Source of the DNA: Sycobia sp. Sy_11
Taxonomy: Eukaryota > Arthropoda > Insecta > Hymenoptera > Epichrysomallidae
Direction of reading: 5' to 3'
Length of the DNA stretch: 64,000 nt
NCBI GenBank assembly: GCA_018907035.1
Contig: JACCIC010000063.1
Coordinates: forward strand, 2,618,001-2,682,000
The notes under the pieces are model-generated. The model made no database searches and was not told where the DNA came from. It was given only the letters and a program-made list of their open reading frames with translations. The translations under genes were made by a program, and so were the position numbers. Shown here piece after piece: positions 13,866 to 34,190 of the stretch (within the stretch, counting starts at the first letter, position 1; the number at the start of each line of letters is the position of its first letter).

Positions 13866-14268
13866 TATTTACATGAATATTTCGTTGCGGCGTTGATTGG
13901 GTGGGCTCGCCAGGCTTTATATACGATTTTCTGAGTATAGGGTTATCAAATAAATCCATTTTTCATCACCAGTGACAAAACCGTGCAAAAATGATTTACA
14001 TTTTTATACCGTTGCAGTCACATTTTGGATATGCAAAATAACGTTTAACGTCTCTCTGCTTGAATTAGTACAGCATCCAGTTTCCGAACTTTTGAATGAA
14101 TCCCAATGCTTTTAGGCGTAAGGAAACGGCTTATTGTGTGACGCCCAAAAGTTTTTCTTGAATCTGACAGGGATCCTTATCCAGCAAAGCATCTAGAACA
14201 GAACAATCCTTGTCTTCAACTTGAAAATCACCATTTTTCAACCGTATATATATATATATTTTCATAAC
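13866..14268 (-). pseudogene. Old mariner transposase fragment
   Basis: The minus strand gives GDFQVEDKD, LDALLDKDPCQIQEKLLGVT, a stop, LRLKALGFIQKFGNW, and further on KPGEPTQSTPQRNIHVN. These are the linker, second helix-turn-helix and early catalytic region of a mauritiana-like mariner, with stops and frameshifts throughout. A younger mariner (14271) has inserted at its N-terminal side, so this is the older of the two. Confidence 0.7.
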
Positions 14269-14270
14269 TA

Positions 14271-14856
14271 TTAGGAGTGTGAATAAGTCTTTCCCGTTTT
14301 TTGTAAGAGATGGCGCCACCAATACTGTGCGAGTATTCAATGGTTACATATGTCATAATCAAAGCTTATTCATATGTCAACAATTCCATACTAACACATT
14401 AGTTAAAATTTTTTCGTATCATAAATTTTTGATATCGTGAAAATGTCGAAATTTGAGCCGAGTCGACGTCATTTGCGGGAAGTTTCACTTTATTGGTTCA
14501 ATTTGAAGAAATCTGCTGCCGAGACGCATCGATTGCTTCAGGAGGCTTATGGAGAAGGTTGTGTCGATGATTCAAGTGTTCGCGGATGGTTTCGACGCTT
14601 CAAAAGCGGTGATTTCGACGTGGAAGACAAGGAGCGGTCCGGGCGGCCGAAAATCTTTGAAGATCGAGAATTGGCGACTTTGCTTGATGAAGATTCTTGT
14701 CAAACGCAAGAAGAACTTGCTGAAGCATTGGGAGTTGACCGAACAACCATTTCCAAGCGTTTGAAAGCCATGGGAATGATCCAAAAGCAAGGAAATTGGG
14801 TGCCGTACGAACTGAAGCTGAGAGACGTCGAACGGCGTTTTTTCACTTGCGAACAG
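14271..14856 (+). mobile_element. 5' half of a young mariner, copy C
   Basis: Begins with the same end as the full copies at 23584 and 32165 (TTAGGAGTGTGAATAAGTCT), preceded by TA at 14269-14270. The transposase opens at 14437 (MKMSKFEPSRRH) and is nearly identical to the full copies up to TTCACTTGCGAACAG at 14856, where similarity ceases. It differs from both full copies in the linker (SGRPKIFEDRELA against SGRSQIFEDREFA), so those two are closer to each other. The 3' half including all catalytic Asp residues is absent. Confidence 0.9.
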
Positions 14857-14869
14857 TCAACAATTTCCA

Positions 14870-15170
14870 ACTTTCGCTGCAAAACCAATAACGCTTTGAG
14901 TAACTTCACGTAAGACTAACCTATCTGATTCAACGACTAACTATAGCTAGCAGCAGTTGTTCATTTAATTTACAGTTCAAATTTGCGGATGTGTTCCTTT
15001 TATGAAGCACTGAAATTCCACCAAGTTGCACATGCATATGTTATAATTGGACGGATTAAAATTAAATAGCAGATAATTTTAGCATGTTTATTAAGCGGTT
15101 TGTTGAAAGAATTCTGGTATTTGCTTTGAAGACTTAGCGCGCTTTTTTAAATTGTGTATTAATATGAATA
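14870..15170. other. Unassigned stretch
   Basis: No supported feature; sequence after the mariner break does not continue that element. Confidence 0.5.
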
Positions 15171-15174
15171 TTCA

Positions 15175-16564
15175 TTCTCAATAGCTTATTCAATTGCGCT
15201 CCAAGGTATTTTATAAAATTTTCATGCTCTATATGTATCTTGTAAGGTTTCTTATATATGTATATTTAAAAATTTTTTATATCTGATCTAATATTAGGAG
15301 CGATTCTATTAAGAGGTTTACGAAACAAGATTGTTTCTGATTTATCGGCGATTATTTTCAGGTTCCAATTATTATAATGGGTATTGATATTATTAACTAT
15401 ATATTCAAAAGTATTTTCGGTAAGTTTAAGAGATTTGTTGGCAACATAAATTATTTAATCGTCAGCAAAAGCAACGATGTACGTTTTATTATCTTAGTTC
15501 AGATTAAATAATTTTGTAATATTATATGTAAATATATTAACTAATAATGGCGAATTTACGGTTCCTTGCATAAGCTCATCGATAATTTTAAATTAAAGTG
15601 AAGATGTAAATGAATCGTTCCAAATTATGAAGGATCGATTTTGAGTCATATTCCAGATTAGCTGTATCAAATTAATATGGAATTTCAGATCATGCAATAT
15701 ATAAAACAAGCCATTTAATCATACGGAATAGAAAGCTTTTTCCACATATAGTACGCAAGCGAAAATAAATTCATTATTATATAAATGGTAGTTAATATCG
15801 TTTACAATGGCGTGTGAAATACAAAGCCAAGTATAAGGACTTGGCTTATGGTTGGAGTAAGGAAAATAGGTCTATAACTGTCTGTGAATTTGAGGCATTT
15901 ATTTTTGTTGAGAATAGGAAGTAGTTTTGCTGTTTTTCAGATACACGGATTGATTAGGTAATTTCGAAAAGATTTTTTGTGTGAAGAAATTTGTAAATAA
16001 AAATAATTAGAGGTTTTATAACATTATATTTAAAAAAAGACTTATAAAATCTGATAAGCGATCTTTCTTAATAAATTTTTTAATTTAAGGTTTAATAGTA
16101 TTTTCGACTACTTTTTTGTGTCTGAATTTTTATTTAGCGATTTACTTATATGAATGGGTATGTGATTCATTACCATACATTGGTAACTGTTTGGTGAAAG
16201 CTTTGTATTTTGTCTTTTTATATATAAATTTAAATTTCTTGGTCCGATTTTCTTTTAAATTTATCGGTTGTGTTAGATTAATGGAAAATGTTAGTGATTA
16301 ATGATCGCTGCAGTAATCATATGTTTTAGATTTATCGATAATAAGATGCGTGAATGAGACACGGCTGTCTGATACGTATAAGTCAAAATACGAGTCTGCA
16401 CTCGGAAATGTGGGATTGAGAGGAGAAATAATTCTAGATTTATAAAATGCGCCTTCTTGCTCAAGCCATTTATTAAGAAATCTGGCTTTTGTGTTCGTTA
16501 TAAAATCACCCCAATTAGTTCGTCTGGCATTAAAGTTTCTTTCTATGATATAGCTGGTTTTCAA
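15175..16564 (-). pseudogene. Jockey/I-type non-LTR retrotransposon, endonuclease and RT remnants
   Basis: On the minus strand 16564-16298 encodes part of an APE-type endonuclease (ERNFNARRTNWGDF, later NPTFPSADSYFDLYVSDSR, CSDH). The reverse transcriptase follows downstream in broken frames: SYRPIFLTP (near 15890), ACVLYVEKAF, LMQGTVNSPLL, then TYIVAFADD with a stop right after the catalytic Asp pair (near 15475), and FIKYLGA. These enzymes nick target DNA and prime reverse transcription at the nick. Many stops show age. Start and poly-A end were not found. The strand order, endonuclease before RT, fits one element. Confidence 0.75.
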
Positions 16565-16888
16565 GATATAATTTAGAGAAAAGTGCCTGTAATTCCTTAT
16601 TCAAATTGTTTTTATCATAGTTAATCGCAATAATAACTATCAAAAACAAGTTGATATTTGTGCAGTTTATTTGTATTATAGTGAATTGTATTCTTTTATC
16701 ATTCATTGAACTAGAATAAAAGATTTTCTCAAAATTAAGCTACTCTTTGATTAAGATGCCAGTACTCTATCTTGGGAATTCTGCTGGCGATCAGTTCTGA
16801 TAAAGCCAAAATTATCAAAAAAAATTTATATTTTTTTGATAATTTAGTTCGCTAATTAATGTGTAATGTGCGTTACTCAGCGGCGAGT

Positions 16889-16920
<32 letters not shown>

Positions 16921-17095
16921 TATAGATCTAGTATAGTGAATAAATAACGCACGTAGTTCAATGTTAAATAAAAACTGGTCTACTTGTATTATATAATAAT
17001 ATAGCTAGGTACTAACAGCGGTCAGTAAATAAATAAACGACCAATAAGAACCGACAAAATTATAATTTAAAATGAAATACCATATTTTTCGTTCG

Positions 17096-17103
17096 TATAA
17101 AAG
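17096..17103 (+). promoter_or_regulatory. TATA box of repeat L
   Basis: TATAAAAG lies about 120 bp before the first hairpin and is preserved in the other copy (complement of 30566-30573). It suggests that the hairpin array is transcribed near the 5' end of an RNA. Confidence 0.5.
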
Positions 17104-17224
17104 TACGTTATTTTTCGATAGAAATTCTGTTCGTCTTCGGCACCTGCTGAAGAAGGCACCTCTCTAGTGAAGAAAGGGAAACAGTAAAATTCGACCGACC
17201 GACCCGTTGTCTCCCGGTGCAAAG

Positions 17225-18043
17225 TCTTCAATGAGAAAAAGGCACTCCTTTGCTCGTTTGAAGATATGACTTCTTGTGTAGGATAGGGCGCTCCCTTGCT
17301 AACAAGAAATACCGCACCGAGCGATACTCGAGAAGGCCAACGAAAAAGGAAAAATTCTATTTCTGGGTAAAGGCGCTCCTTTGTCAGAAATATAATTAGA
17401 AAATATATTATTGACGAGGTGTTCCTAAGAATAATATATTAAATTCCGTAGGGCATTCTGTTTATCTGTAAAAAATTAAAAGTCAGATTTTATCTCTGAG
17501 AAAAGGCGCTCCTTTGTCAGAGATAAAATTAAATGTGTATTAATGACGAGGCGCTCCTCGAATTAATACACACTGACCGCCGAGAAATTGTAAAATCCGT
17601 CAAAAAGGTAAAAAGTTAAAAGTCAGATTTTATATCTGAGAAAAGGCGTTCCTTTGTCAGAGATAAAATTAACGAGGTATTAATAACGAGGCACTTCTCG
17701 AATTAACACATCTAGACTAACGCAGATTAATAGTAAAGTGTCGATAAATCTTCAAGATAGGGAAATCCGTATAATTAAAGTGTTATAGGAAAAGGCGCGA
17801 CGTTTCTCCGAATCTAAATTATAGCGAGACATGTCGAAGGAAAATAATATATACCTGAGAAGTAAATAAGGAATTAAAATAAATAGAATTATGTATAATT
17901 ATAAGTATTTACTTCATACTATAACAAAATTATAATTAATTAATATAAGCGTAAAATAATTTTTTAATAAGATCAGGCGCTACTGAATTATTTAAAAATG
18001 AATAATTTTATATTATTGACGAGGAGCCCTCGGAATGATATAA
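17225..18043 (+). repeat. Array of about ten hairpins with a common apex (copy 1)
   Basis: Imperfect to perfect inverted repeats occur at 17225-17264, 17270-17310, 17353-17397, 17402-17440, 17487-17529, 17535-17571, 17627-17669, 17677-17709, 17959-17999 and 18008-18043. Most share an apical segment such as AAAGG-CGCT-CCTTT or CGAGG-CGCT-CCTCG, while outer stems differ (for example ATTTTATCTCTGA with TCAGAGATAAAAT; GTGTATTAAT with ATTAATACAC). Units at 17627-17709 are a local duplication of 17487-17571. Stem lengths are 12-18 bp. Seen directly in sequence; RNA folding and role are inference. Confidence 0.85.
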
Positions 18044-18439
18044 GAATTAAATTGGATAAATTGCGAGAAAGCGAAAACTCCGGCCGTGGAAATAGACGAC
18101 CAAAGTAAATAAAGAGAGAGCGCGAAAATAGGCCAAGGCCGAATAGCCGATAATAGGATTAAGAATTTAAGTCGCGACGAAATACGCGGAAATATAAAAT
18201 TATAATATGATAGAAATTATTAAATAGTAAAATATTATAAAATTTTTTTTCTTTTTTTTTGTTTGTTGTAGGGAGTGACTAGCAAGATCAAGTAAGAATA
18301 GCCGACATTATAATATATTTCATTTTTTTCTTATTATTTATTGTTATTATTATTCTTTGTTATTGTTATTCTTTCTTAGTGTTATTGAATAAATAGAGTC
18401 ACTTTTATTAGAATATAAAAGAATTTCAAAGAGTTATTC

Positions 18440-20580
18440 ACCTAATCCATCTGCCCGTCCTGACACGATCCTTCATCTTCCTAAGAACCCTCAAACTATC
18501 TAAATGTTCAAACTGCAAGAAGAAGATAGGAGACGGGTCGGTACAAATGTGATATTTTTTATTTTTTACACAAAAACAAAGCGTTATGTAAGAAAAAGTT
18601 AGAGAATAAAAAGTGCTTAGAATTGACCAAGAAGTATATCTGAATTTTTTTTGAAACGATTCAATGAATTTTTCCAATTTGTCATAAATTGCCAATTAGC
18701 AAAAATAAAAAAGTTGCTCAAAACTCAGCGAAAAAATTTAGGCATATTCTCTGATTGATTCTAAGTACTTTTTATCTTATTGATTTTTTCGTCGAATGCA
18801 TTATATTCGAGAAAAATATTCGTGAAAGTTTGGACAAAATTTTGCGCTTCAGGCGCCATTTTCTAGCCACCATATTAAATTTCTGGATTCAGGACCAAAC
18901 TGAATTTAAAGTACAACTCGTTTAAGCACTCATAGTGGAAAAATAAAGTTCCGTACTCAACGTTAACTCAACAAGAAATTGGATTTTAAAAAAAAGTATC
19001 GAAATTTTGCATTTTTTTGTAAACGTCGCCATATTGGATTTTTGAGTGAAAACTTTGCAATTCTGATATCAGAACTGGAAAATAGAGAAAAAAATACTTA
19101 AGAAAAAGTATATTTTCTTTGAATATATCAGTGGAATATGTGATAGATTTACGGTTGAAAACAGAGTTACGATTTCTCTGTTTTGGACGTTAAGGGGTTA
19201 AGCGTAAATAAAAGTAATGTAACAGTTTCATATTGACGCAATAAATATTTCAAAATTTTTCCAACCAATATTAAAACATATGTATAACACGGTCGTCCGA
19301 AGGCTGTAGTTCCTATACTTCTTTTCGGAACAGGACCGCACTCCTTGATCGAAGTGTAAGAGTCAGTCAAAACGGAATAAATGTTTTTTTTGTTTCAATT
19401 ATTTTAGAATTTATAGTATTATGACTTCGTATTTTATTATCAATAATTATTTATAAAAATATTTGAACATCAATTTCTAGATTTTTTTCTTTTAATAAAG
19501 TAACTGTCCCTTTAACAATTAAAATGATAAAATAGGAATGAAATAGGTAAATATCGATTAGATTTTTGTATAAAATCATTTATTACGAATATATTGATTG
19601 GAATGTTTGAAATATCTACGTATTACAAAAAATTGATCAAAATCCTTAAAAATTCTTGGAAATGGAAAGGCAATACTATTATAAAATAAAATATTATTTA
19701 CAATTTTTCGATTATTATACTCGTTTGACGAAACATACCCACATAATTCCAATATAACATATTGGAATGTCAGATTATTTTAGCCTTCTATAAATAATAA
19801 AGCAAAAAATACTCGAAACTAAATATTGGACAGTATCGTAAAAGGTATGTAAACATATGTGTTCACTGGGTCTTATTACGACCTACGTCTTTGCTACCCT
19901 ACGCGGCAAATGATTTATGAGTTTATTGTTTAGATGCTAGAAGTTATTTATAGGTTTTAAGCGTCTCACAAAGGCTTGCAGAGTTTTCTATTTCGACTGC
20001 TGTAATTAGTCTTGTGTCGTCCTTTCGTTTGAAAAGATGTTTTTTCTTTCCTCGTTTGAAATAAAGTTCATGTTAAAAGATTATTTCGTGTATCTTTATT
20101 TTAATATTCCACCTACTATATTTAATAAAAATCCAATAGGCTATGGGTCCAGATTTCGCGAGAGAACTTTCCGTGATTTTGTGGATTGTGTAATCTATTA
20201 ATAAAATAAAACTGCGTTCAATAAACAGAAAAAAAGTTTTTTTCTATTAAGTGAAAAATGGAAACAATATCAATATCTATTTATGTTATTATATTTTAAT
20301 TTATAATATCTCTTTTATAAATCCAATATATTCCCAGATAAAAATATTTTAATATAAACAAATTACAATATAAAATATAATGAAGCTGTACACAAAATTT
20401 ACATGTTAACTTATAATTTCTGATCCTTAGGTAAGGAATAATATAAATACATAAAATAAAAAAAATCGATTCACAACTCTCCATTCCCGAAACATCAAAA
20501 TTCCGAAATTTTACTATAAAAGACAACTGTATTAGTCTCAAGGAACTAGAAATCTGTAATTCTCACGCTAGTTACTAACG
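18440..20580. other. AT-rich intergenic stretch
   Basis: About 2.1 kb without a supported gene or recognised repeat; open frames here are short and without motifs. Confidence 0.5.
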
Positions 20581-20602
20581 GTAATTTATTTTTTTGTTTC
20601 AG

Positions 20603-20644
20603 AGACTCTTATGGAAGAGACGAACAATAGGATGGACAAATCGG
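20603..20644 (+). other. Candidate 42-nt microexon
   Basis: A strong acceptor (TTATTTTTTTGTTTCAG) precedes and a strong donor (CGG followed by GTAAGTTA) follows a 42-nt segment, a multiple of three, open in two frames. One frame contains an ATG (METNNRMDKS-like, exactly MEETNNRMDKS). No neighbouring exon was found, so this could be a short exon of a host gene with large introns or a chance pairing of signals. Confidence 0.25.
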
Positions 20645-20979
20645 GTAAGTTAATAGAGTGCGAGTATTGGCATGAGCTGTATACGTTTCCCGATTATTTC
20701 CGAAATTAACATGGGCTCTCTCATCACTTTGATTCTCATAACAGAAATCATTCATGCATGCATTAACCATATAAAAGGGTAGCGCGACGCGATAAATCAA
20801 TCACCATATAAGATATACATTGATCGTGGCCAGTTTCCCTATGCCAGCCTACGAATCTGAGAATCTCAGATTTTTCAGGAAATAAAAATATTAATGAATT
20901 TACTAACAAATATTTGTACCAGTCTTATAGTCTTTATAATTTTATTAATACTATTTTACGTCGCTGTATTTATTATACT

Positions 20980-21105
20980 CCCAACTCTCAATACTAATCA
21001 ACGATAAAAGTCTACGATGTATTAATAAACAAAGCACATATAAATTTTTACATCGATGATTAGGTACTTGTGCTAATCGACCGTTCTAACACTTAAACAA
21101 TCGCG
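20980..21105 (-). repeat. Decayed copy of SINE S
   Basis: The order of ACTAATCAACGATAAAAGTC, TACGATGT, AACAAAGCACATATAAAT and CTTGTGCTAATCGACCG parallels the SINE at 42037-42245 with many substitutions. Confidence 0.55.
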
Positions 21106-21549
21106 TAGTGTCGCCTTTATAAATTAACTATCATCCTTCATCTCAGCTTCATCCGAAATAATAATTAAACCGATTTAATAAAACGTTCAATCATATCTAT
21201 GTAAAAAATACTTTATGTATAAGTCTATATTCCTATAGATAATTTTTTTTTTTTCAATTACAGTTGGCACCAGTAACTAAATATTCATGGTATTTAGTTC
21301 AAAATAATAAAATATACGCAAAATATAAATATGTATATATTATGTATATCGCCTACATACGGCTTCTTGAGAAAATTATTGTACTTTCGTGTTTGGTCGG
21401 ACGAAAAAGATGTTGAGGTTGAGATAAAACACGATGTTTACATATCTTGGGATGACTGCAATGCAGTGTTTCGTTTTCAGACGATATAAAGCTTTTAAAT
21501 TGATTTTATTCACTTTAATGATTTTAATATTGAGTTTATACAAATATTT

Positions 21550-22805
21550 ACCAATTGCAATATTTCCGGTTGATCTAATTTGAGCCAGAAGACGATTGAC
21601 CAAAAATGTTTTCCCAGTACTTCCAGGAGCATCTAAGAAGAGAATCATAGGATTATTGTTATTTATACTATTACAAATAATGTAACATACTTCACATTGA
21701 GCCGCTACTAATTTAGAAATATTTATTTTTACAAATTTTTTTAATTCATCACTATCAAAATTATGTGGCAGCATTGATGGTCTCATGATTCTTACGTATA
21801 GGAGTTCGTAAACCAAAATCACATATACATTTTGCACTAAGAGTAATCACAATAGTTTTAATTTCAATAAGACCTTTATTAAATATTTCATTTGAAAAAT
21901 TTATTTCGAACTTGTTAGTTTGCCAACGAATTTGATATAAAATATCTTGACAAAAGTCCTTCTGAAACATTTCCCATAATACATGTGGTTGAGCTCTATG
22001 ACAAAATACTAATACAATTGCAAATAATTCTCTTAATTTAGACGAAGACTGTTATAATGAAGCATCAAATAGAGTATTCTTCCAATGATTATCATTTTTT
22101 ACAAACAAACCATCACACACGCAGCTTGGAATGTCTGTTGTAGAACAACATTAACAGTCTTTAAGTCATAAAATGAGATAGGACCTTCAACATTATGCAA
22201 TAAAAGATGCAAATAAAAGCATTCACTTTGATTTGGATGAATAGTATATACTCTACCCAAAGCATTGTCTTTTTTAACTCTGGGAAATCCTTCAACGGCA
22301 ACTCCGCGCATCCTTCTAATAAATTTATTGCCTCGCCAAATATAATAGGTAGGTATTTCAGGATATAGCAATGTTTTAGCAAATTCATCCGAGCGACAAA
22401 GTTCAAAGAAAGCTGTTAAAGTAGTTTGCCGAGGACCATTAAGAATATGTTGGATATTTTCTTCAGTGAAGTAAATACGTTGATGATTTTCTAAATGAAT
22501 TGCTAAATGAATGACAGTCCGATATCGTACATGAATTGAAAAATCAAAAAATCTCCAGTAAACCTCGGATGAGCATATATATCAACCATTAATATACTGA
22601 TTTAATTCATCATTTTCATTTTCAACAGAAAATGTAGCTTGATCAGAACCTTTGGTAATATATTTGCATATATATCAGATAGCTTGCACGGAATTACAAA
22701 AGTCAATGTTAATATGCGCATTGAAACAAGGTAAGAGGACTGGGCAATATGGTAAAATCCATTTATTGTCTGTATCAATTAAATTACCTCGCATAACAAT
22801 GTAGT
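21550..22805 (-). pseudogene. Helitron Rep/helicase fragment
   Basis: The minus strand starts near 22805 with MRGNLIDTDNKWILPYCP and continues LPCFNAHINIDFCNS, then YICKYITKGSDQATFSVEN, HLENHQRIYFTEENIQ, AFFELCRSDEFAKTLLYPEI, ALGRVYTIHPNQSECFYLH and the helicase Walker A region ILFLDAPGSTGKTFLVNRLL (21640-21590). This is the Rep C-terminal part and start of the Pif1-type helicase that Helitrons use for rolling-circle transposition. Several stops and frameshifts break it and similarity ends after GNIAIG at about 21550. Walker A is altered to APGSTGKT from the common GPGGTGKT. Non-functional. Confidence 0.85.
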
Positions 22806-22829
22806 AGAAAATTTACTTTATATAAAAAA

Positions 22830-23580
22830 AAGTATAAATTCGTATAGAAACAGTAGAATTGCTGATAGAATTAATGGCCAAAATAAATATATCAATTTTA
22901 ATAATTAGAAATTAATATTAATATTTGAATTTGAAGATTCGAAACTTTATCATGATTTAAATAAGTTAAATAAATAATAGTTTTAAGAAGGTTGTACTTC
23001 TTGAAGTATCAAAGAGGGATCCCAATAGAAATTAACTTCAATTTGGTTGCTTAAATAATTAATAATTCAAAAATGTATATTAGTAAAAAAAAACAAAACA
23101 CAATTTATAACAGATACCACTTCTAACAATTTATATTGAAATTTACATTTTTGGCTATATGAAATGGTATATATAGATATATGTTAATTTAAATAATTTT
23201 AATTGTTTTTAAAATTAATTTTTTTAAATAAAAATCGATAAGACCCATAACTCTTCATCTATACTGAAAACCCTTATAATATTAAAATAATTTGATTTCT
23301 GTTTGACAATTCAATAGCATGGGAACAATCCAAAAATTGTAGATTTTAAACCCTTTTAAAAAATTATTTGGTTATTTTGATACTTTTATTTGAACATTCT
23401 GTATAATGCATATTTCAAAATAATTATACAATTTTCTTCTTGCATAGAAAAAATTAGAATGTTGAAAAAAATATTAAATTATTTTTATAATTTGTTTTCA
23501 GAAATTATTTTTAGTATGATTTGGCATACAACCATCTTATAAAAGAAGAGAGAGAGAGACAATTTTTCACGTGAGAAAAA
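22830..23580. other. AT-rich intergenic stretch
   Basis: No supported feature apart from a short GA run at 23548-23559. Confidence 0.5.
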
Positions 23581-23583
23581 TTA

Positions 23584-24869
23584 TTAGGAGTGTGAATAAG
23601 TCTTTCCCGTTTTTTGTAAGAGATGGCGCCACCAATACTGTGCGAGTATTCAATGGTTACATATGTCATAATCAAAGCTTATTCATATGTCAACAATTCC
23701 ATACTAACACATTAGTTAAAATTTTTTCGCATCATAAATTTTTGATATCGTGAAAATGTCGAAATTTGAGCCGAGTCGACGTCATTTGCGGGAAGTTTCA
23801 CTTTATTGGTTCAATTTGAAGAAATCTGCTGCCGAGACGCATCGATTGCTTCAGGAGGCTTATGGAGAAGGTTGTGTCGATGATTCAAGTGTTCGCGGAT
23901 GGTTTCGACGCTTCAAAAGCGGTGATTTCGACGTGGAAGACAAGGAGCGTTCCGGGCGGTCGCAAATCTTTGAAGATCGAGAATTTGCGACTTTGCTTGA
24001 TGAAGATTCTTGTCAAACGCAAGAAGAACTTGCTGAAGCATTGGGAGTTGACCGAACAACCATTTCCAAGCGTTTGAAAGCCATGGGAATGATCCAAAAG
24101 CAAGGAAATTGGGTGCCGTACGAACTGAAGCTGAGAGACGTCGAACGGCGTTTTTTCACTTGCGAACAGCTGCTTCAGCGACATAAAAGAAAGGGTTTTC
24201 TGCATCGTATCGTGACTGGCGATGAAAAGTGGATACGTTACGATAATCCGAAGCGATGAAAATCATGGGGACTACCCGGCCATGCATCATCATCGACGGC
24301 CAAGCCAAATATTCATGGCGCCAAGCTCATGCTCTGTATATGGTGGGACCAGCTAGGTGTGGTTTACTATGAGCTTCTGAAACCGAATGAAAGGATCACA
24401 GGCGAGGTCTATCGACGACAATTGATGCGTTTGAGCCGCGCACTGCGAGAAAAACGGCCACAATACTCCGACAGGCACGACAAAGTTATTTTGCAACATG
24501 ACAATGCTCGCCCACATGTTGCACCGCCGGTGAAAACATACTTAGAAACGCTCAAATGGAAAGTCCTACCCCACCCGCCGTATAGTCCAGACGTTGCTCC
24601 GTCTGATTACCATCTCTTCAGATCGATGACGCATGGTCTGGCTGACCAGCACTTCCATTCCTACGAGGAAGCCAAAAAATGGGTGGATGACTGGATAGAG
24701 GCCAAACCGGTCGAATTTTTTCGCAACGGGATTCGTATGTTGCCAGAAAGATGGGAAAAAGTTGTAGCTAGCGATGGCCAATACTTTCAATAATTCATTT
24801 GTAACCATTTTTTCACAATAAAGGCTCAAAATTTGAAAAAAAACGGGAAAGACTTATTCATATACCTGA
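23584..24869 (+). mobile_element. Full-length mariner, copy A
   Basis: 1286 bp between TA duplications (23582-23583 and 24870-24871), starting TTAGGAGTGTGAATAAGTCT and ending with the related inverted end AGACTTATTCATATACCTGA. It is almost identical to copy B at 32165-33450 and has the same length. The transposase carries one nonsense codon. Confidence 0.95.
23750..24793 (+). pseudogene. Mariner transposase with a single nonsense codon (copy A)
   Basis: A DD34D mariner transposase of the mauritiana-like group; a start at 23756 (MSKFEPSRRHLREV) is the likely true one. Order: paired helix-turn-helix (WFNLKKSAAETHRLLQ; TQEELAEALGVDRTTISKRL), linker SGRSQIFEDRE, then catalytic Asp in VTGDEKWIRYD, Asp in QHDNARPH and Asp in PSDYHLFRS, 34 residues apart. 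Reading stops at 24257-24259 where the second Arg of a conserved KRRKSW-type segment is TGA, then stays open to 24793. Apart from that codon the gene is complete (about 345 residues). Copy B shares the stop. Confidence 0.95.
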
Positions 24870-25048
24870 TAAAATATACAAAAATCAAAAGATATCCATA
24901 AGGTATGAGTATAGTGTTAGTCAGATTAATCTGATGAACAAAAAAGATAATGCCGACCAACCGCACACCTTCTTTAGGATACGAATCCCAAATTTGGATA
25001 TGATCATTCGTCTGAGCTTGCCTGGTATGGATACTTTAAGCAGACTAG

Positions 25049-25302
25049 TTTGAGTTGATGTTCGTGATTCAAAACGCCGTCTAGTGGCCGCTTGTAAAAA
25101 ATGACTACTAAAACTGTTAACTTAATTAATTGTTAAAAGTAAAATGATTTTCAAGAAAAAACATAGCTTATGTCGTTCCCAAAATAATGGAGAATTTATA
25201 TGTCCAATTTCAGAACAATTGGTTCAGTAGTTTTTTCGGTTATCAAACAAAAATACGCTTTGTCTTTATAAATTAGTATGAAGTATGATATGATATGATA
25301 TA
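25049..25302 (-). repeat. Interspersed repeat W, copy 2, with microsatellite end
   Basis: Inverse-oriented match to 911-1140: complement of TTTGAGTTGATGTTCGTGAT through AATTGGTTCAGTAGTTTTTT, ending in a TATGA-type microsatellite (25270-25302) like copy 1. Non-coding. Confidence 0.7.
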
Positions 25303-25334
25303 TTTATATTATATATATATATATCTATATATAT

Positions 25335-25634
25335 ATTATAACGGTGCGCGTGTCCGCCTCGAACACGTGGACGGCGGGCACGACCGTTCCAAAAGATGTG
25401 CGCGGCTGGGCTCAGCCCCGAATCGTTTCGGCGAGGGAGAGGGGCGGTCCGCGAGAGGCGAAGTAACGCATGCAGAATTGCGCGGAGGTAGGGAGATCAA
25501 ATGACTACAAGAAAATTGAACAAATACAACTGGACGTGTCTTTAATTCACAACATACGTTCGGTATAACAAATACGCGAAGGCACGATGCGCGCAGGCCG
25601 AGGGTCGCTGAAGCGATTAGGCGTGTGGCGTCAG

Positions 25635-25697
<63 letters not shown>

Positions 25698-26148
25698 TAA
25701 TGGGCTGCCACTTACAGTCGGGTCGATGTTGTTGGATCGTCCGCTGGCGGCAGGAGGCGGCGGCGGCAAACTCTGAACCGATGTCAGCACGTCCTCGTTG
25801 GCCAGGGGAGGCGGTGTCCCCGTTCGTCGGTGGCCCCGGGATGGGGCAGTTACTCCGCACAGACGGGAGCCGGGTGACAGGCTCGTTAGTTCGAGCTCTG
25901 CGGCGATGTCCGCGTAACGAGCCCCGCGGTTCTCGCCTCAGCGGACGGCGGCACGCACGAAAGCGACGAAACTCGCACAATGGGCACGGAGTCCCTCGCG
26001 AAACAAAACAAAAGAACACGAAAAAAACGAGCACCCGACGGACTCTATTTTTTGAGTGTTAGAAAGAAAAAAGCTCGATCGCACGTCGCTCGTGAAGTTC
26101 TCTCTCAAAACTCCCAAAATTCGCGCGCGACCATTTCTCCCCACTCCC

Positions 26149-26191
<43 letters not shown>

Positions 26192-26520
26192 TCTCACTTA
26201 CCTCTCCGCGGTGTAGTAGTGCGTCGGCCTGTATCAAATATATATTAATATTTACATATAAACATATATACATATGTACAAGGGCTACGATGGGAGAGAG
26301 AGCATTGGGGCGTGGGAAAGCAAACGCGGCGCTTGTGTTCCCCTTCACACGCCCTCCCCCTCCAGGCGCTGGTACCCAAAGCGTGGCAGCTCGACCCAAC
26401 ATCTCTCTCTCTCTCTCTCATTTTGACCATTATGTCAGGATAGCAATTATTACACAATTCATAACTGGGGAATATCTTAATAAGGAGAGGATGGAAAATA
26501 AAGCCGCAGGTGCATTATGC
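25335..26520 (-). other. GC-rich 3' flank of the Gypsy element, possible LTR
   Basis: This CpG-rich stretch lies downstream of the pol gene on the same strand, where a 3' LTR is expected. On the minus strand an AATTAAAG signal (near 25540) lies about 200 bp from the end. GA/CT microsatellites at 25639-25700, 26151-26186 and 26402-26420 interrupt it; a purine run next to TTGGGTCG near 26402 could be a polypurine tract and LTR start. No second LTR copy exists in the window, so boundaries are unproven. Long open frames here reflect base composition. Confidence 0.35.
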
Positions 26521-26522
26521 AC

Positions 26523-26981
26523 CTAGATGGCCTGTTGATGGGTCTTGGCTTGGGCCCGAGTGCGGTGGGGGGATTGGTCCCGGGGTAGTGCTGAGCACTG
26601 GATCATCCTGGGGCGATCTGCTTTCTGCTTTACCAGGTGTATGCCACTATTGCAGGCGGCCTTGCTGTTGTGGGGCTTCGCAGGGGCTCGTGTTTGAGTC
26701 CTTCGACGGGTTACAATTTGCCTCCTAATCGGTCTCCCGAATCTATGCGGCGCGACACCGGCGTTAGATCGTGTGGCATTGCCCACGGGGGTATCGCTTC
26801 GCACGCTCGTATCGGGATTACAATAAAACGTATCGTCGGGGCGCCGTACGCTCACCAGTGGTGTTACACTACGGTTTCGTTCGCTCGCCTCGACAATACA
26901 ATCGGACGCATCACAGGCACGCTCTTCGCCCGAATGCTCTTCCGTATTGGAACCGCTATCATCTTCGGGTCGTGATATCAA
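26523..26981 (-). CDS. Open C-terminal tail region of Gypsy pol
   Basis: An open frame directly follows, in a different frame, the integrase stop at 26978. It begins ISRPEDDSGSNTEEHSGEE and later reads RFGRPIRRQIVTRRRTQ, an acidic then basic, Arg-rich composition like tails of some Gypsy polyproteins. There is no ATG at its start. It might be a tail reached by frameshift, or a chance open frame in GC-rich DNA. Confidence 0.3.
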   Translation of the reverse strand: MISRPEDDSGSNTEEHSGEERACDASDCIVEASERNRSVTPLVSVRRPDDTFYCNPDTSVRSDTPVGNATRSNAGVAPHRFGRPIRRQIVTRRRTQTRAPAKPHNSKAACNSGIHLVKQKADRPRMIQCSALPRDQSPHRTRAQAKTHQQAI

Positions 26982-27880
26982 TTATAGGGCTTCAGGTCGG
27001 CGACATGATGCTTACCAGCCTCTCTTCCTGTAGAGTCGATCAGTCGATAAACATTCGTGCCGAGCTTCTCCATGATCGTAAAGGGACCGTCGAATTTCGG
27101 GGGTTGGCAAAGCTTGGCACTGACGCCTTGTATGCTACACGAGAGGATGCAATTACGCCGCGATACGCGATCGCCAATCGCGTAATGAACATCGCGACGT
27201 CTCGCATTGTTCATTACGCGAGAGCAGCCTTTTCTTGTGCAACCTGTACGTGCTGTTCCTCCTGGCGACGATGCATGTCAGGGGCTGAGGGATGACTATT
27301 GAGTCCTATTTACCCTCTCTACCGGATTGGCTTGAGCGTGATAAGGGGGTATCGTTGAATGCTCCACCCGACGCTCCACAAGGAATTTCTCGAGGATCTT
27401 ATTACGAAATTCGGTGCCATTGTCCAATAGGAATATTTCGGGCGTACAAAACAGTAAGAATACGCGATCTTTCAACTCGCGGCGAATCGTTTGCGCATTC
27501 GCCTTTCGTATAGGGATGCACTCTACCCAGCGAGTGAAGAGATCCATGAAAACGAACAAGTACTCGTATCCTCGGGTAGATCGTGGAAACAGACCCATCA
27601 CGTCTCCAGCTACTACTGCCCAAGGACGGGTGACCGTTCGATAGCCCATCAGGCCAGCTGGTGCAGTCTGCTGTACCTTACACTGCTGGCACACGGTGCA
27701 GTCACGGACAAATTATGTCACATCTTTGTGCAATGAGGGCCAATAGTATGATCGTGCAATACGGTCATACGTCTTATCGCATCCGAAATGATCAGCTGTG
27801 GGCTCTTTATGACATTCATGAAGAACGGTACGGCGATCATCTTTAGGCACGACTAACTTCCACGCATCCTAGTCATCTAC
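26978..27880 (-). pseudogene. Ty3/Gypsy integrase
   Basis: From about 27840 downward the translation shows the zinc-binding region (HECHKEPTADHFG, YYWPSLHKDV, CTVCQQCK; His and Cys pairs retained). The catalytic core follows, with Asp in VVAGDVMG, Asp in FLLDNGTEF and Glu in NPVERVNRT (27694-27296). After a frame change near 27215 comes a C-terminal module ending FDGPFTIMEKLGTNVYRL and HVADLKPYN, stop at 26978. The enzyme inserts retrotransposon cDNA. A stop near 27725 and the frameshift break the chain, but the catalytic triad is intact, suggesting moderate age. Confidence 0.85.
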
Positions 27881-27919
27881 TAAATCTTCGACGGCAGGAT
27901 CGGGACGGTAGTAGTATAG

Positions 27920-28600
27920 TCATTGCCCGATGACCTTCCACCATGGGTGGTCTGTCGGATCGCTCACCATTTTCTTATGAAGGCGCAAATAACAGAGATC
28001 TTGCACATCGGCGACGCCGAGGGAGGCAACTTCGCAGGTTGGCTCATCTTTGGCCAAACGAGAGAGGGCGTCTGGTACGCAATTTAAGGTACTTTTCCTG
28101 TGGATGACTTCGTAATCATATCCCTGTAATTCCAAGGCCCAACGGGCGAGTCTGCCCGTGCGGTTGCGCAATGAGTACAGCCAACGAAGGCTGCTGTGAT
28201 CGGTTATCACTTGGAAGTGGTAGCCCTCGACGTACGGGCCAGCCCAGAGCACGGCTAGGCACTCACGTTCGGTGACCGAGTAATTACGCTCAGCCGCAAT
28301 CATGGTGTGAGTAGCGTAGGAGAGCACGCGCTCCACGCCATCAACTGATTGCGTGAACGCGGCGCCTAGTCCCGATTCGCTGGTGTCCGTCTGGTTGACG
28401 AACGTTTCTCCGAACGACGGTCGAGAAAGGACTGGTGCAGATGCGACGAAAGCCCGGATCTGTTCGAAGGCTTGCTGCTGCTCTTCTTCCCAATGATACT
28501 TGATGCTCTTTTTGGTTAATCGGGTGAGAGGCTCGGCAAGCCTTGCAAAATTCTCCAAGAGCTTGCGATATCAGGACGCAAGGCCTAGAAACCTACGGAG
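27920..28600 (-). pseudogene. Ty3/Gypsy RT connection and RNase H domain
   Basis: The frame opens MENFARLAEPLTRLTKKS, continues with HWEEEQQQAFEQIRAF, then the RNase H core: QTDTSESGLGAAFTQ (first acidic site), ERECLAVLWA (Glu), FQVITDHSSLRWLYSL (Asp) and VIHRKSTLNCVPDALSRL. This order is standard for Gypsy pol, where RNase H removes the RNA template. It joins the RT at about 28600 through a frameshift. The final segment reads LHKKMVSDPTDHPWW. Confidence 0.85.
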
Positions 28601-28605
28601 CTGCT

Positions 28606-29445
28606 TCAGGTTCTTTGGTGCAGCGTAAGTAAATTTGGTGCAATCTTATCCGGATCGGGTTGGAAACCGTTACGGTCCACGAGGACGCCGAGAAATCGTA
28701 CCTCTGCGAGTCCGAATTTTCTCTTTTGCCTGTTAATGGTCAAGTCGGCATCGGAAATGCGTCGCAGGATATGTTCGAGCCACCTGAGGTGCTCGTGAAA
28801 GCTCTCCGTAGCGATGATCACATAATCGAGGTAGGCGAAGGCCACCATCTCCATTTCAGGGCCGATTAGCTTGTCGCTTAACTGCTGTAAGGTTGCAGGC
28901 TCACCGGCGACACCATATGGCATACGTGTACATTCAAATAACCCCATGCCTGGGACCGTGAAGGCAGAGAGGTGTCGCGATTCCTCCCGAAGAGGGACCT
29001 GATTGTATGCGCTGCTGAGGTCCAGTGTGGAGATGTATCGCGCATTTTTCAGTTTCCGTAAAATTATGTCCATGAAAGGGAGCGGGTACGCGCTGACCTT
29101 TGACACGAAATTCAATTTGCGATAGTCCACGCAGAATCGGTAGCTCCCGTTGCTCTTGCGAACCATCACGACGCGGCTAGGCCCCTCGCTGATTGATCGG
29201 TGAATTACGCCTTGATCAAGCATTCTGCAAACTTGCGCATGCATTTCCAGCTCTATCTTCTAAGAGACCGGATAATAACGCTGCTTAATGGGCTTAGCAT
29301 CGCCGACATCGATCACGTGGTCGGTCAGATCCGTGCAGCCCAGAGGCTGATCAGTCGGAGGCAGCATTCGGTCGAGGAGTTCCTCGAGAGCTCGACGTTG
29401 ACTATCGTCAATATCACCCAAGCCTATAAAGGCAAGCGAATACAA
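28606..29445 (-). pseudogene. Ty3/Gypsy reverse transcriptase with altered YxDD
   Basis: The upstream part (29445-29260) reads ALEELLDRMLPPTDQPLG and HVIDVGDAKPIKQRYYPVS, then an in-frame TAG before KIELEMHAQVCRML. The RT frame (29244-28606) shows SRVVMVRKSNGSYRFCVDYR, then RYISTLDLSSAYNQVPL (first catalytic Asp), TRMPYGVAGEPATLQ and FAYLDYVIIATES. The catalytic box YLDD has become YLDY, so polymerisation would be lost even without the stop. LGVLVDRNGFQPDPDKI closes the palm/thumb. Gag, protease and the 5' LTR are absent; the sequence is cut off near 29445. Confidence 0.9.
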
Positions 29446-29499
29446 ATTTTAAATAATTAACAAAACACATTTGTTTGGAAAATAGATAAAACCGACAGT

Positions 29500-29621
29500 G
29501 TCAAAAGACAGTGGAAGAGACAGTGGAGAATAAAAAGTTTTTATTCTCACCACAAAAGTAAAAAAAATAGTATATTTTTCGTCACTTTACAATTCTGAAA
29601 GAACTTTATCTTTCTCGGTTT

Positions 29622-29704
<83 letters not shown>

Positions 29705-30791
29705 ATCTCTCTCTATTTACTTTGGTCGTCTATTTACATGACCGGAGCTTTCACTTCTTCGCAATCTAAGGTATTGAATTTTATATAATTCCAAGGGGCT
29801 GCATGTCAACGTTATAAAATTCTTAATTTTTAAATAATTTAGGAGTGCCTGATCTTATTTAATAATTATTATACAATTTTATTCAATACCTATAAACTTT
29901 GTGCGAATTTAAGTAAATACTTATAACTCTTATGCATGGTTCTATTAATTACAATTTCTTATTTATTTCTCTGACATATATTATTTTCGTTCGACGTGCC
30001 TCGTGAAACGACACGCCTTTTCTTATAATGCTTTAATTATATGGATTTCCCAATCCTGGCCTTTTATCGACGCTTTTCTATGATTTTACATTAGTCTAGA
30101 TGTATTAATTCGAGGAACGCCTCGTCATTAATACACATTTAATTTTATCTCTGATAAAGGAGAACTTTTTCTCAGAGATAAAATCTCACTCTAAATTTTG
30201 GCCGATTGACATAAAAGAAATGCGCGGCGGAGTTTAATATATTATTATGAAAAAAGTATAATATATTTTTGAATTCTATTACTGACAAAGGAGTGTCTTT
30301 ACTCAGAAATAGAATTTTGCCATTTTCGTTGGCCTTCTCGAGTGTCGCTAGGTACGGTATTTCTTGTTAGCAAGAGAGCACTCTTTTCTATACAAGAAAT
30401 TATATCTTCAAATGAGCAAAGGAGCGTCTTTTCCTCATTGAAGCATCTGCACCGGGAGACGACGTGTCCGTTGGTCGAATTTTACTATTTTCCCTTCTTC
30501 ATTTGAAAGGTGACTTCCTCAGCAAGTGCCGAAAACAAACAGGCCTTCTATTGAAAAATAACGCACTTTTATACGAACCAAAAAGACGTTAATTCATTTT
30601 AATTTATAACTTTTTTACTTCTTATTAGTCGCTTATTTGTTATAGTGGCCGCTGTTAGTATCCAGCTATATTATTATATTATACAAATAGACTATCTTCG
30701 ATTTACTTAACATTGAACTATGCGCGTTATTTACTTGTTATATTCTATTTATATATTATATTTTACTCGCTACTGAGTTATCCATGTTACA
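29500..30791 (-). mobile_element. LTR-like repeat L with hairpin array, copy 2
   Basis: Reverse-oriented sister of 16862-18425, starting (minus strand) TGTAACATGGATAACTCAGT at 30791, with TATA complement at 30566-30573 and hairpins at 30404-30444, 30358-30400, 30276-30317, 30140-30183, 30102-30134 and degraded ones at 29790-29870. A CT microsatellite (29625-29700) replaces part of the 3' region. It lies directly 5' of the Gypsy pol on the same strand, but nothing like it occurs 3' of pol, so belonging to that element is unproven. Confidence 0.5.
29625..29700. repeat. (CT)n microsatellite
   Basis: About 75 bp of CT dinucleotides grown from a short GA-rich spot that is only about 10 bp long in copy 1 of repeat L (about 18113-18121). 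Confidence 0.95.
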
Positions 30792-30837
30792 ATATATTAT
30801 AATATATTTATATATGTTATATATTTATATATCTAAA

Positions 30838-31060
30838 TATTAGACGATCTATTAATGTTTGAGGATTAAGGTCTAATGGAATACTGCACTTTATTTCACT
30901 TCTAAATGTGTTATTATTGGCTTTCAAGGAAAATTCAATTCCTTTGGATATCATTGTGGTTGATAAAAATTGATGATTGATATCGTTAATTTCGTAACTA
31001 CCAGTGGGAATAGTAATAAATTCCCACTATATATATATAGCTTATTATTTGTATTGTGAA
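30838..31060 (-). pseudogene. Polinton-like penton/minor structural protein fragment
   Basis: The minus strand reads EFITIPTGSYEINDINHQFL, then GIEFSLKANNNTFRSEIKC and SIPLDLNP. This is the N-terminal pattern of a jelly-roll-type protein found in insect Polinton-like loci, often annotated only as uncharacterised; a penton or minor capsid role is inferred. It follows the protease fragment on the same strand, as in a structural gene block. Repeat L truncates it at about 30835. Confidence 0.45.
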
Positions 31061-31074
31061 TATTCAAAATTGAG

Positions 31075-31320
31075 TCAAAGGTTAAATATTCGAGTAAGCC
31101 TAAAACAAATTTTAGACCAAAAAATAAATGAATTGAACTTTTGATATCTTTTAGAATTGTATTTTACTTCATTTACATTGAAATATTTCACGAGATCTAT
31201 GTGAGGCCTTAGATTACCTCTTTCGATAAGACACACAATGAGTATCTTTATTCTGTGAATCATCGAGATTAACAATAGCAGATTCGTTGTACGATGTACC
31301 ATTGTGAGGCAGACTATTCC
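31075..31320 (-). pseudogene. Polinton-like adenain-type cysteine protease fragment
   Basis: On the minus strand ESAIVNLDDSQNKDTHCVSY (near 31270-31210) corresponds to the catalytic-His region, usually GTHW. After a frame change NLRPHIDLVKYFNVNEVKYN and SKRYQKFNSF follow. In this family the catalytic Cys comes just after, but here the frame is lost. The protease matures capsid proteins in Polintons and adenoviruses. Missing Cys and a frameshift make it inactive. Confidence 0.55.
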
Positions 31321-31341
31321 TCGTGAAAACACTTCGAAAAT

Positions 31342-32160
31342 ATGGAATTTTCCGTAAAAAATGAAATAAATTGTAGTGAAGTTTGTAAAATGTTCATAAA
31401 GGCATATGGTGAGTCTGCTATGAGTAAAGCAAGGATTTACGAGTGGTATAAGCATTTCCAAGATGGCCGCGAAAACGTTGAAGATGACGAACGACCCGGA
31501 CGCCCAAGCACATCAACAACCGATGAAAACGTGAAAAAAGTGAAAGAAATTTGTTATGAACGATCGCCGAATCACAATAAGAGAAGTCGCTGATGAGATT
31601 GACATATCAGTTGGCTCATGCCATGAAATTTTTTCGGATGTTTTGGATATGAAACATGTGGCAGCAAAATTTGTTCTAAAATTGTTGAATTTCGAACAAA
31701 AACAGCGGTGAATGGAAGTTGTTCAGAAGTCGCTAAATGAAGTTTCTAAGGATGTAGAACTACTAAACCGTGTTATAACAGGTGACAAAACATGAGTTTA
31801 CGGATAGGATGTCGAAACAAAGGCTCAATTGTTCCAATGGAGGCATTCTGGATCGCCAAGACCGAAAAAGGCTCGACAAGTGCGGTCGAATGTGAAGTTT
31901 ATGCTCACTGTGTTCTTCGATTTTAATGGTATAGTGCATCATGAATTTTTGCCACATGGTCAAACAATCAATAAGGATTACTACCTACAAGTTCAACGCC
32001 GTTTGCGTGAAGCAATCCGAAAAATACGCCCGGATTTGTGGTAAAATAACTCATTACTTTTGTACCACGATAATGCACTTGCTCACACTTCATTGCTTGT
32101 TCGTGATATTTTGACCAAAAACAAAACTTTAACGATGCCTCAGCCTACATATTCTCATAA
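31342..32160 (+). pseudogene. Mariner transposase of a distinct subfamily, interrupted
   Basis: Opens MEFSVKNEINCSEVCKMFIK with GRENVEDDERPGRPSTSTTD; a frameshift near 31555 leads to NDRRITIREVADEIDISVGS and later RVITGDKT (first catalytic Asp, then a stop), KKARQVRSNVKFMLTVFFDF and YHDNALAHTSLLVRDIL (second Asp). At MPQPTYSHN, just before the third Asp, mariner copy B has inserted. The subfamily is common in insect genomes. Several stops show it was dead or dying before the insertion. Confidence 0.8.
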
Positions 32161-32164
32161 TATA

Positions 32165-33450
32165 TCAGGTATGTGAATAAGTCTTTCCCGTTTTTTTTCA
32201 AATTTTGAGCCTTTATTGTGAAAAAATGGTTACAAATGAATTATTGAAAGTATTGGCCATCGCTAGCTACAACTTTTTCCCATCTTTCTGGCAACATACG
32301 AATCCCGTTGCGAAAAAATTCGACCGGTTTGGCCTCTATCCAGTCATCTACCCATTTTTTGGCTTCCTCGTAGGAATGGAAGTGCTGGTCAGCCAGACCA
32401 TGCGTCATCGATCTGAAGAGATGGTAATCAGACGGAGCAACGTCTGGACTATACGGCGGGTGGGGTAGGACTTTCCATTTGAGCGTTTCTAAGTATGTTT
32501 TCACCGGCGGTGCAACATGTGGGCGAGCATTGTCATGTTGCAAAATAACTTTGTCGTGCCTGTCGGAGTATTGTGGCCGTTTTTCTCGCAGTGCGCGGCT
32601 CAAACGCATCAATTGTCGTCGATAGACCTCGCCTGTGATCCTTTCATTCGGTTTCAGAAGCTCATAGTAAACCACACCTAGCTGGTCCCACCATATACAG
32701 AGCATGAGCTTGGCGCCATGAATATTTGGCTTGGCCGTCGATGATGATGCATGGCCGGGTAGTCCCCATGATTTTCATCGCTTCGGATTATCGTAACGTA
32801 TCCACTTTTCATCGCCAGTCACGATACGATGCAGAAAACCCTTTCTTTTATGTCGCTGAAGCAGCTGTTCGCAAGTGAAAAAACGCCGTTCGACGTCTCT
32901 CAGCTTCAGTTCGTACGGCACCCAATTTCCTTGCTTTTGGATCATTCCCATGGCTTTCAAACGCTTGGAAATGGTTGTTCGGTCAACTCCCAATGCTTCA
33001 GCAAGTTCTTCTTGCGTTTGACAAGAATCTTCATCAAGCAAAGTCGCAAATTCTCGATCTTCAAAGATTTGCGACCGCCCGGAACGCTCCTTGTCTTCCA
33101 CGTCGAAATCACCGCTTTTGAAGCGTCGAAACCATCCGCGAACACTTGAATCATCGACACAACCTTCTCCATAAGCCTCCTGAAGCAATCGATGCGTCTC
33201 GGCAGCAGATTTCTTCAAATTGAACCAATAAAGTGAAACTTCCCGCAAATGACGTCGACTCGGCTCAAATTTCGACATTTTCACGATATCAAAAATTTAT
33301 GATGCGAAAAAATTTTAACTAATGTGTTAGTATGGAATTGTTGACATATGAATAAGCTTTGATTATGACATATGTAACCATTGAATACTCGCACAGTATT
33401 GGTGGCGCCATCTCTTACAAAAAACGGGAAAGACTTATTCACACTCCTAA
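32165..33450 (-). mobile_element. Full-length mariner, copy B
   Basis: Inverse orientation, 1286 bp, TA duplications at 32163-32164 and 33451-33452. Only a few bases differ from copy A (for example CACATACC against CATATACC near the 3' end, and one base in the transposase C-terminus). It is nested in the mariner at 31342. Confidence 0.95.
32241..33284 (-). pseudogene. Mariner transposase with the same nonsense codon (copy B)
   Basis: The protein matches copy A residue for residue in both open segments (33284-32775 and 32705-32241), including the TGA at 32775-32777 in place of a conserved Arg. All three catalytic Asp residues (GDEKW, HDNARPH, PSDYHLF) are present. Because the stop is shared, the copies descend from an already mutated parent, so movement must have used a transposase supplied by another copy, unless the region was duplicated; the flanks differ, which favours transposition. 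Confidence 0.95.
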
Positions 33451-33453
33451 TAT

Positions 33454-34190
33454 GTGATAAGAAAAAAGGAAATAAGGGTAGCTCTGCCTCTCGCCGTTAC
33501 CAACTCGCGTGTACAGAGGCCTACGTACACGTGTAGCCAAATGTATTGAAAACACAGCAGTTTTCCGATGGCACAATCTACTCTCTAGGAAGTCTAACTT
33601 CCGCGTTTCAGTCGTAAGGTGTGCGCGGGGAGCCCTTAAGAATACTTAGCAGTGAGTAGTAACATGCGTGAGAGGTTGAGAGAGCCACGAGAAAAAAAGG
33701 AGGGAATAAATAAATACATAAATAAATAACGGGGAGCGCGAGCTATTCGCCTTTGTGCGAAATAAGGAAACTTCCCGCCTCATGTTCGTCGAAGTAGACC
33801 TGCAGAGCGCGGCTTCGATAGTACGCGTGACAATGGCCGCAGGTGATAGGGCCAAAATTTGGCCGCTCTGTTGAGGCGGGGGAATAGAGCGCGGTTTCGA
33901 TAATGCGCGCGTCAACGGCCGCATACGATAGGGCCAAAACTTTATCGCGCTGTAGCGGCGAACAAGAAGAGCGCAATCGCAAAATGCTCACGTTAATGTT
34001 TTTCGGTAATTCGACCGAAAATTTCACCGCTCTCCCCACTCTGTAGCGACGGGGGGAGAGAGTGCGGGCTTTAAAAGGCCGAGCGGCGAGCGGCGGCGGG
34101 GATTTTTTCTGTTACTGTTGTGAGAGATAGTTACGTATAATAAAATTAACAAAAATAAAATATATTTAGTTCATTTTTCTCAAGAACATA
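33454..34190 (+). other. GC-rich LTR-like or promoter region with 80-bp tandem duplication
   Basis: A block far richer in GC than its neighbours. Two diverged copies of an about 80-bp unit start GAGCGCGGCTTCGATA (about 33806) and GAGCGCGGTTTCGATAATGC (about 33893); a third fragment begins GAGCGCAATCGC. A TATA-like TTTAAAAGG at 34070 is followed by a GC-rich stretch and then AATAAAAT near 34155. The layout resembles a solo LTR; its ends were not fixed. Confidence 0.4.

Follow-up and report, generated by a model that had tools for sequence, protein, structure and literature searches.

In the TAR element, the iron-responsive element and the MS2 operator, a set number of pairs separates a bulge from the small loop above it, and TAR lies within R. 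The iron-responsive element joins a C bulge to a CAGUGN loop, and in MS2-type operators two pairs stand between a bulged A and an ANYA loop. The hairpins SL-C and SL-D of Moloney murine leukaemia virus have GACG tetraloops, and we know of no internal-loop plan common to the two. According to the report on them, these adjacent, coaxially stacked Moloney hairpins lie between R-U5 and gag, their deletion eliminated packaging, SL-D kisses through two intermolecular G-C pairs only, and the two alone are insufficient for packaging (PMC7599994). In satellite tobacco necrosis virus 1, hairpins with AxxA loops and differing stems have been proposed to bind the capsid protein; that report describes a degenerate motif with five putative sites at the 5' end and disfavours a packaging role in vivo (PMC6475782). 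Packaging of Ty3 RNA has been reported to depend on UTR or POL sequences, and the accessible part of that source describes no repeated hairpin array in the Ty1 or Ty3 leader RNA (PMC4974528).

The array described here lies at positions 17225–18044 of the window (the whole 64,000-nucleotide stretch analysed, part of a 621-Mb genome), where a covariance model, R1, finds ten hairpins, all on the forward strand. As with SL-C and SL-D, the hairpins come in pairs, and each NGCY loop holds a two-base self-complementary GC. Unlike the Moloney case, there are five doublets rather than one, the Moloney hairpins are not in R, and the loop differs, GACG being absent from the 25 commonest loops of the 231 hairpins scored. 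As in the satellite virus, one genome carries multiple hairpins that are alike in loop motif and unlike in stem, but here they are closely arrayed, with internal loop and pitch both fixed. TAR, the iron-responsive element and the MS2 operator occur as single or few hairpins with other loop and bulge sequences. Neither the loops nor the bulges here are those of the iron-responsive element, which also gave no Rfam match, and five pairs stand between the bulge and an NGCY loop, unlike in the MS2-type operators. The likeness to Ty1 and Ty3 is that of one LTR retrotransposon leader to another. A known RNA family was rejected, there being no Rfam match at the gathering score between 14000 and 34000; of three sub-threshold matches there (E up to 5), none falls on the array, and one (CRISPR-DR16) overlaps, on the opposite strand, the first hairpin of a second copy discussed below. 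The first-pass annotation, made from the letters of the window, knew of no element with this layout, and our literature search, in which subscription papers were largely outside scope, likewise turned up none among the papers listed.

The ten hairpins claimed in that annotation are borne out by R1, nine of them at E ≤0.00035 and one, H2, weakly (22.3 bits, E 0.054). Eighteen hairpins went into R1, five of them from this array, so five window hairpins match it by construction. The same search returned three reverse-strand echoes of hairpins (E 0.012, 0.017 and 0.46) and five leftover AT-rich, chance-like matches (E at least 0.69). A scan for pairing with no sequence condition (score at least 24) recovered 5 of the 10 hairpins (H3, H5, H6, H7 and H10), against a mean of 0.12 and a maximum of one in 60 dinucleotide shuffles; the window copy is a decayed one. 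A satellite of simple palindromes, which had been considered as an explanation, was rejected: no Tandem Repeats Finder row covers 17225–18044, and the array has a fixed place in the aligned LTRs.

The layout, first described as ten hairpins in succession, is more exactly one of five doublets, each 86–88 nt long and each folding alone into two separate stem-loops. Doublet 1 consists of H1 (17225–17264, 36.6 bits with R1) and H2 (17271–17310), the weakest of the ten. Doublet 2 consists of H3 (17353–17397, 48.8 bits, match from 17356), which has a GT/G internal loop, and H4 (17402–17440, 40.4 bits), whose loop is TGTT here and mostly TGCT in other copies. H5 (17486–17530, 57.0 bits, match from 17489) and H6 (17534–17572, 56.7 bits) form doublet 3, and the H5-like H7 (17626–17670, 52.0 bits, match from 17629) and H6-like H8 (17674–17712, 31.7 bits) form doublet 4. 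In doublet 5, H10 (17957–18001, 47.5 bits, match from 17960) is followed by H11 (18001–18044, 43.1 bits, match from 18007), whose loop is mostly AGCC in other copies. The pitch within the window doublets, measured on R1 matches, is 46, 46, 45, 45 and 47 nt; of the 253 loop-to-loop intervals found across 41 arrays, 110 measure 44–48 nt. In the folded window doublets the apex region is altered in H2 and H4, and the loop is widened in H8 and H10. The name H9 was given to a different possible stem that is not one of the ten, read by hand on the forward strand between doublets 4 and 5 (17798–17836; 11-nt arms, a loop of ~17 nt); this region has no R1 match and lies outside the shared plan. The H9 stem is altered in the second window copy.

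The shared plan consists of a variable lower stem of ~9–14 bp, a 2x1 internal loop with mostly GA on its 5' side and G or A on its 3' side, five pairs ending in GG/CC, and an NGCY tetraloop. The constant tips and varied stems noted at first reading hold up; the constant part is not the apex alone, since the 2x1 internal loop, set off from the tetraloop by five pairs, belongs to it as well. A pairing scan of 41 arrays (40 loci, the window copy included, plus the second window copy) gave 231 hairpins, in 199 of which the internal loop is exactly 2x1 and sits five pairs below the tetraloop. The 5' side of these loops is GA in 158/199 and the 3' side G or A in 199/199. Shuffled arrays gave 0.11 hairpins each (14 in 123 shuffles), two of the 14 with a 2x1 loop. 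The two closing pairs are GG..CC in 153/231 hairpins, and the leading tetraloops are CGCT (111), TGCT (31), CACT (21) and AGCC (21); CACT, CGTT and TGTT loops look like CpG decay of CGCT or TGCT. The plan also has a direction: strict-plan matches in the 41 arrays number 88 in sense and none in antisense, and 20 further copies all have matches, with every one of their 98 R1 matches at E ≤0.001 on the LTR sense strand. Copies as divergent as ~68%–80% identity retain the plan, and we regard the hairpin anatomy as firm.

The array sits in an LTR of 1,684 bp on the forward strand (16862–18545, TGTAATG...GTACA), whose ends were read from the sequence and lie about where the homology of other copies stops. 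It is flanked by AATG target-site duplications, also read from the sequence, at 16858–16861 and 18546–18549. What had been called an LTR-like repeat is thus a true LTR by the TG...CA ends and target-site duplication of the window copy; many other copies start with TGTAACG and end with CGTTACA. A TATA box (TATAAAAG, 17096–17103, forward strand) is retained as TATAAAA in 35/47 copies aligned there, and the array begins ~120 bp downstream of it, as first stated, so that it would open the transcript. Two possible poly(A) signals, both AATAAA, follow the array on the same strand at 18108–18113 (AATAAA or ATTAAA in 35/52 copies aligned there) and 18388–18393 (35/40). Being downstream of the TATA box and upstream of both signals, the array is probably in R.

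Because no primer-binding site follows position 18545, the window LTR is probably a solo LTR. In two of the 24 copies with an end listed (L016 and L035), TGGCGCCCGAA[C/T]AGGG stands directly 3' of the LTR as a primer-binding site, which we assign to tRNA-Lys. The DNA downstream of LTR copies with this site encodes retroviral-type proteins. Locus L042 has reverse transcriptase and RNase H (tblastn; RVT_1), then the integrase domains H2C2 and rve, and after these come matches to mariner transposase and another LTR, which likewise has a hairpin array. A protease is seen in L041 only, with a score of 24.1, just below the Pfam cut-off of 26. The pol order protease, reverse transcriptase, RNase H, integrase, assembled from these two copies, fits a Ty3/gypsy-type LTR retrotransposon as the carrier of the array. 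L050 and L053, ~7.3 kb apart on one contig and 98.3% identical over 1,752 aligned bases, are probably the two LTRs of one insertion.

A DNA search with the second window copy as query gave 984 first-look candidates, of which 40 were scored and produced 58 matches at 67%–100% identity; the family is therefore large, with divergent copies. The aligned set comprises 68 arrays from a family with hundreds of candidates, and its midpoint-rooted tree is a near-star plus a ladder of more divergent copies. Among aligned copies the position of the array within the LTR is constant. An interior location in the element was rejected, as the higher-ranking R1 matches, those listed for L042, all fall in its 3' LTR, and L041 has no match at E ≤0.1. 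A genome search with a loose motif, the bare 17 bases, showed hardly any enrichment (933+951, against 912+817 with the motif reversed as control). In a small sample of eight short stretches hand-picked from that search, no array outside the LTR family was seen: seven match the LTR by BLAST, and the eighth (L069) has no R1 match.

The second window copy, W2, is a divergent, truncated copy of the same LTR on the reverse strand, with approximate limits 29690–30800 and 77%–82% identity. It accounts for the second site (29780–30480, reverse strand) that the first-pass annotation had proposed to fold alongside the array. W2 has one doublet fewer, with five R1 hairpins at E ≤0.00063 and a weak, non-significant sixth (E 0.77) at the place expected for H2. 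A Ty3/gypsy pol lies beside the truncated LTR (29420–27296, reverse strand), and a GA/CT microsatellite (29625–29714) lies between the two. This pol probably belongs to another family than the array's element, to judge by its reverse transcriptase, which is 52% and 35% identical to that of L042 over two stretches. Elsewhere in the window are three mariner copies, a fragment at 14266–14856 (forward), one at 23582–24877 (forward) with a Mos1-type HTH, and one at 32157–33452 (reverse); they are ~99% or more identical over their aligned parts and were probably active recently. The window also has an ORF of 373 aa with a DUF4371 domain (49668–50789, reverse) and a 21-bp minisatellite (47043–47163; 5.8 copies, 95% matches by Tandem Repeats Finder).

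The number of doublets varies among copies, which indicates that doublets are gained or lost as units. In the window, 17468–17570 and 17608–17710 form a direct repeat with 89% identity that corresponds to doublets 3 and 4, so that doublet 4 appears to have been copied in tandem from doublet 3. One of these two is absent from W2 and, by the scan, from several copies fetched by similarity to W2 (for example L045, L048 and L050). Such differences would be expected if the array were an inherited by-product, a set of doublets multiplied by duplication within the LTR and now without function. We consider this the least probable of the explanations weighed here, as the divergent copies still retain the plan. 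Recombination, which the first-pass annotation had offered as a possible source of the array, probably contributes, given the duplicated doublet and an inverted apex described below, but by itself it would account neither for every hairpin having the sense orientation nor for the persistence of an asymmetric internal loop.

The first-pass annotation also stated that the stems diverge while their pairing is kept. This is so between hairpin positions and hardly so within one hairpin across copies. When arms were crossed among eight hairpins (H1 and H2 left out), outer arms were paired with their own partner at 92.4% of positions on average (417 comparisons), against 46.7% with another hairpin type from the same copy and 83.1% with the same type; for inner arms the values were 88.1% (own partner), 61.9% (other type) and 87.5% (same type). 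A set of 18 hairpins, a biased choice picked among well-paired ones, is 95.1% paired against 64.7% when shuffled, with a covariation score of 0.75 against 0.18 and two-sided changes in 85 cells against 28. The best-paired natural copies of eight hairpins, again a biased choice, and one in which H2 stood in the wrong register (bulge ignored) with meaningless counts, show 148 two-sided and 6 one-sided differences and no broken pair. Other genomic copies retain pairing, as 375 of 449 alignable hairpins in the 68 aligned arrays (H2 left out) are at least 85% paired. Pairing has been selected between hairpin positions, or something has acted there that mimics selection.

Between copies of the same hairpin, 190 of 663 single changes and 20 of 40 double changes keep the pair, in counts where H2 is in the wrong register, its own figures being meaningless, and H11 has a common U.G. 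Covariation across genomic copies, proposed at the outset as a check, is thus weak, which is what one would expect if the differences are for the most part due to decay of inserted copies. Changes of the G.U type (217) and A.C type (190) show no clear sense-strand wobble bias, and this comparison was rejected as proof of RNA selection. Nucleotide diversity (pi) is 0.20 in loops, 0.17 in inner stems, 0.14 in linkers and 0.11 in outer stems, and the changes between copies of one hairpin look like neutral decay, roughly the pattern to be expected of insertions that decay while their lineage evolves. In a single case, one H5 pair of the divergent group, C-G (3), T.G (4) and T-A (3) together trace a wobble path on the sense strand.

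As the first-pass annotation had anticipated, the array folds well as RNA (z −5.9), but folding as DNA is at least as extreme (z −11.1), and in neither case were any of 20 shuffles as stable. Local folding is at least 3 standard deviations better than the shuffle mean in 40 of the 41 arrays (10 shuffles each). The sense local fold is more stable than the antisense in 27/41, a figure that is not decisive and was rejected as proof of an RNA role. When the 1.3-kb R region of the window copy is folded without restriction, the pair probabilities of H3, H4, H5 and H7 are ≤0.27, partly, it seems, owing to cross-pairing between similar arms; a 60-nt limit on span restores H5 and H7 and leaves H3 and H4 at ~0.4.

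The strength of the DNA fold, together with the near-perfect palindromic stems, the duplicated doublet and the neutral-looking decay among copies, could be explained at the level of DNA, by palindromes arising and kept through cruciform or template-switch repair plus tandem duplication, or serving as DNA protein sites, without an RNA role. In L012 the H10 apex looks inverted relative to other copies, as after cruciform inversion (among 16 of the 41 arrays), and this single flipped apex suggests that an inversion process may occur, yet rarely. Palindrome repair should erase the 2x1 loop and flip apices at random, yet the loop is retained in the great majority of hairpins and the strict plan is entirely in sense; this asymmetry favours RNA. 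Fourteen arrays of a divergent group have TA/A as the internal loop of H4, and 32 arrays of the other group have GA/G (we drew the two groups from the midpoint-rooted tree); neither form is a perfect palindrome. For the plan as a whole, we interpret the internal loop as an A bulge (a U bulge in H3) lying over a pair that may be G.G, G.A or U-A. We regard palindrome dynamics as the main rival at the DNA level, and as unlikely, though of some weight.

Our favoured interpretation, held tentatively and with somewhat less than even confidence, is that the array is a multivalent leader-RNA element in R, acting in packaging or dimerisation through a bound protein, through loop kissing, or through both. 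In its favour are the single plan, the doublets, the sense direction, outer stems that vary less than linkers, the place between TATA box and poly(A) signals, and persistence in divergent copies. Counting against it are the lack of a clear wobble bias, loops and inner stems that vary more than linkers, the low pair probabilities when the R region folds freely, the strength of the DNA fold and the scant enrichment of the 17-base motif. With transcription from the TATA box, ~100 nt of the genomic RNA would precede the array, which by way of R would stand near the 3' end as well; there it could provide a multivalent platform for both packaging and dimerisation. Each doublet would bind a protein, most likely the element's Gag and possibly a host protein. 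The self-complementary GC of the tetraloops would let hairpins kiss on the same or a second RNA through two G-C pairs, a contact as small as the one reported to hold for Moloney SL-D (PMC7599994), and gain of doublets by duplication would raise avidity. A more specific version, which we hold to be doubtful, is a polyvalent RNA code of five tandem two-hairpin modules in R, all loops sharing one self-complementary GC and all stems one bulge, in which any module could kiss any other, a capsid or host protein would bind in register, and module number would change by duplication. Divergence of the stems with pairing kept would then serve to keep neighbours from cross-folding.

A host factor might instead recognise the same RNA array, with nuclear export, stability or non-scanning translation as its purpose rather than packaging, and this is the main rival at the RNA level. 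The leader of the window copy (~17127 to the end of the LTR) contains ten ATGs, and natural examples of the ten hairpins, one taken for each position, have folding energies of −9.7 to −20.0 kcal/mol, so that ordinary scanning to gag looks hard. In setting a bulge five pairs under a small loop, the plan is reminiscent of known protein-binding hairpins, and the constitutive transport element, TAR and IRESs offer models for a host-factor role. Neither a host factor nor a comparable element was found, including by the Rfam search of 14000–34000 at gathering score, and we rate this possibility as rather unlikely. A presumed transcript with ten hairpins close to its 5' end could also supply small-RNA precursors or decoys for the host silencing machinery. 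Variable stems under a constant loop are the opposite of what would suit a guide RNA, stems of ~14–19 bp are short for Drosha or Dicer substrates, and such a role appears very improbable, only slightly less so than the functionless by-product considered above.

If the array is indeed multivalent, as in the packaging or dimerisation role that we favour, then ten near-copies of one motif, together with natural variants at many loci, would make its recognition rule directly testable, and the array would offer an example, found in nature, of a multivalent RNA tag.
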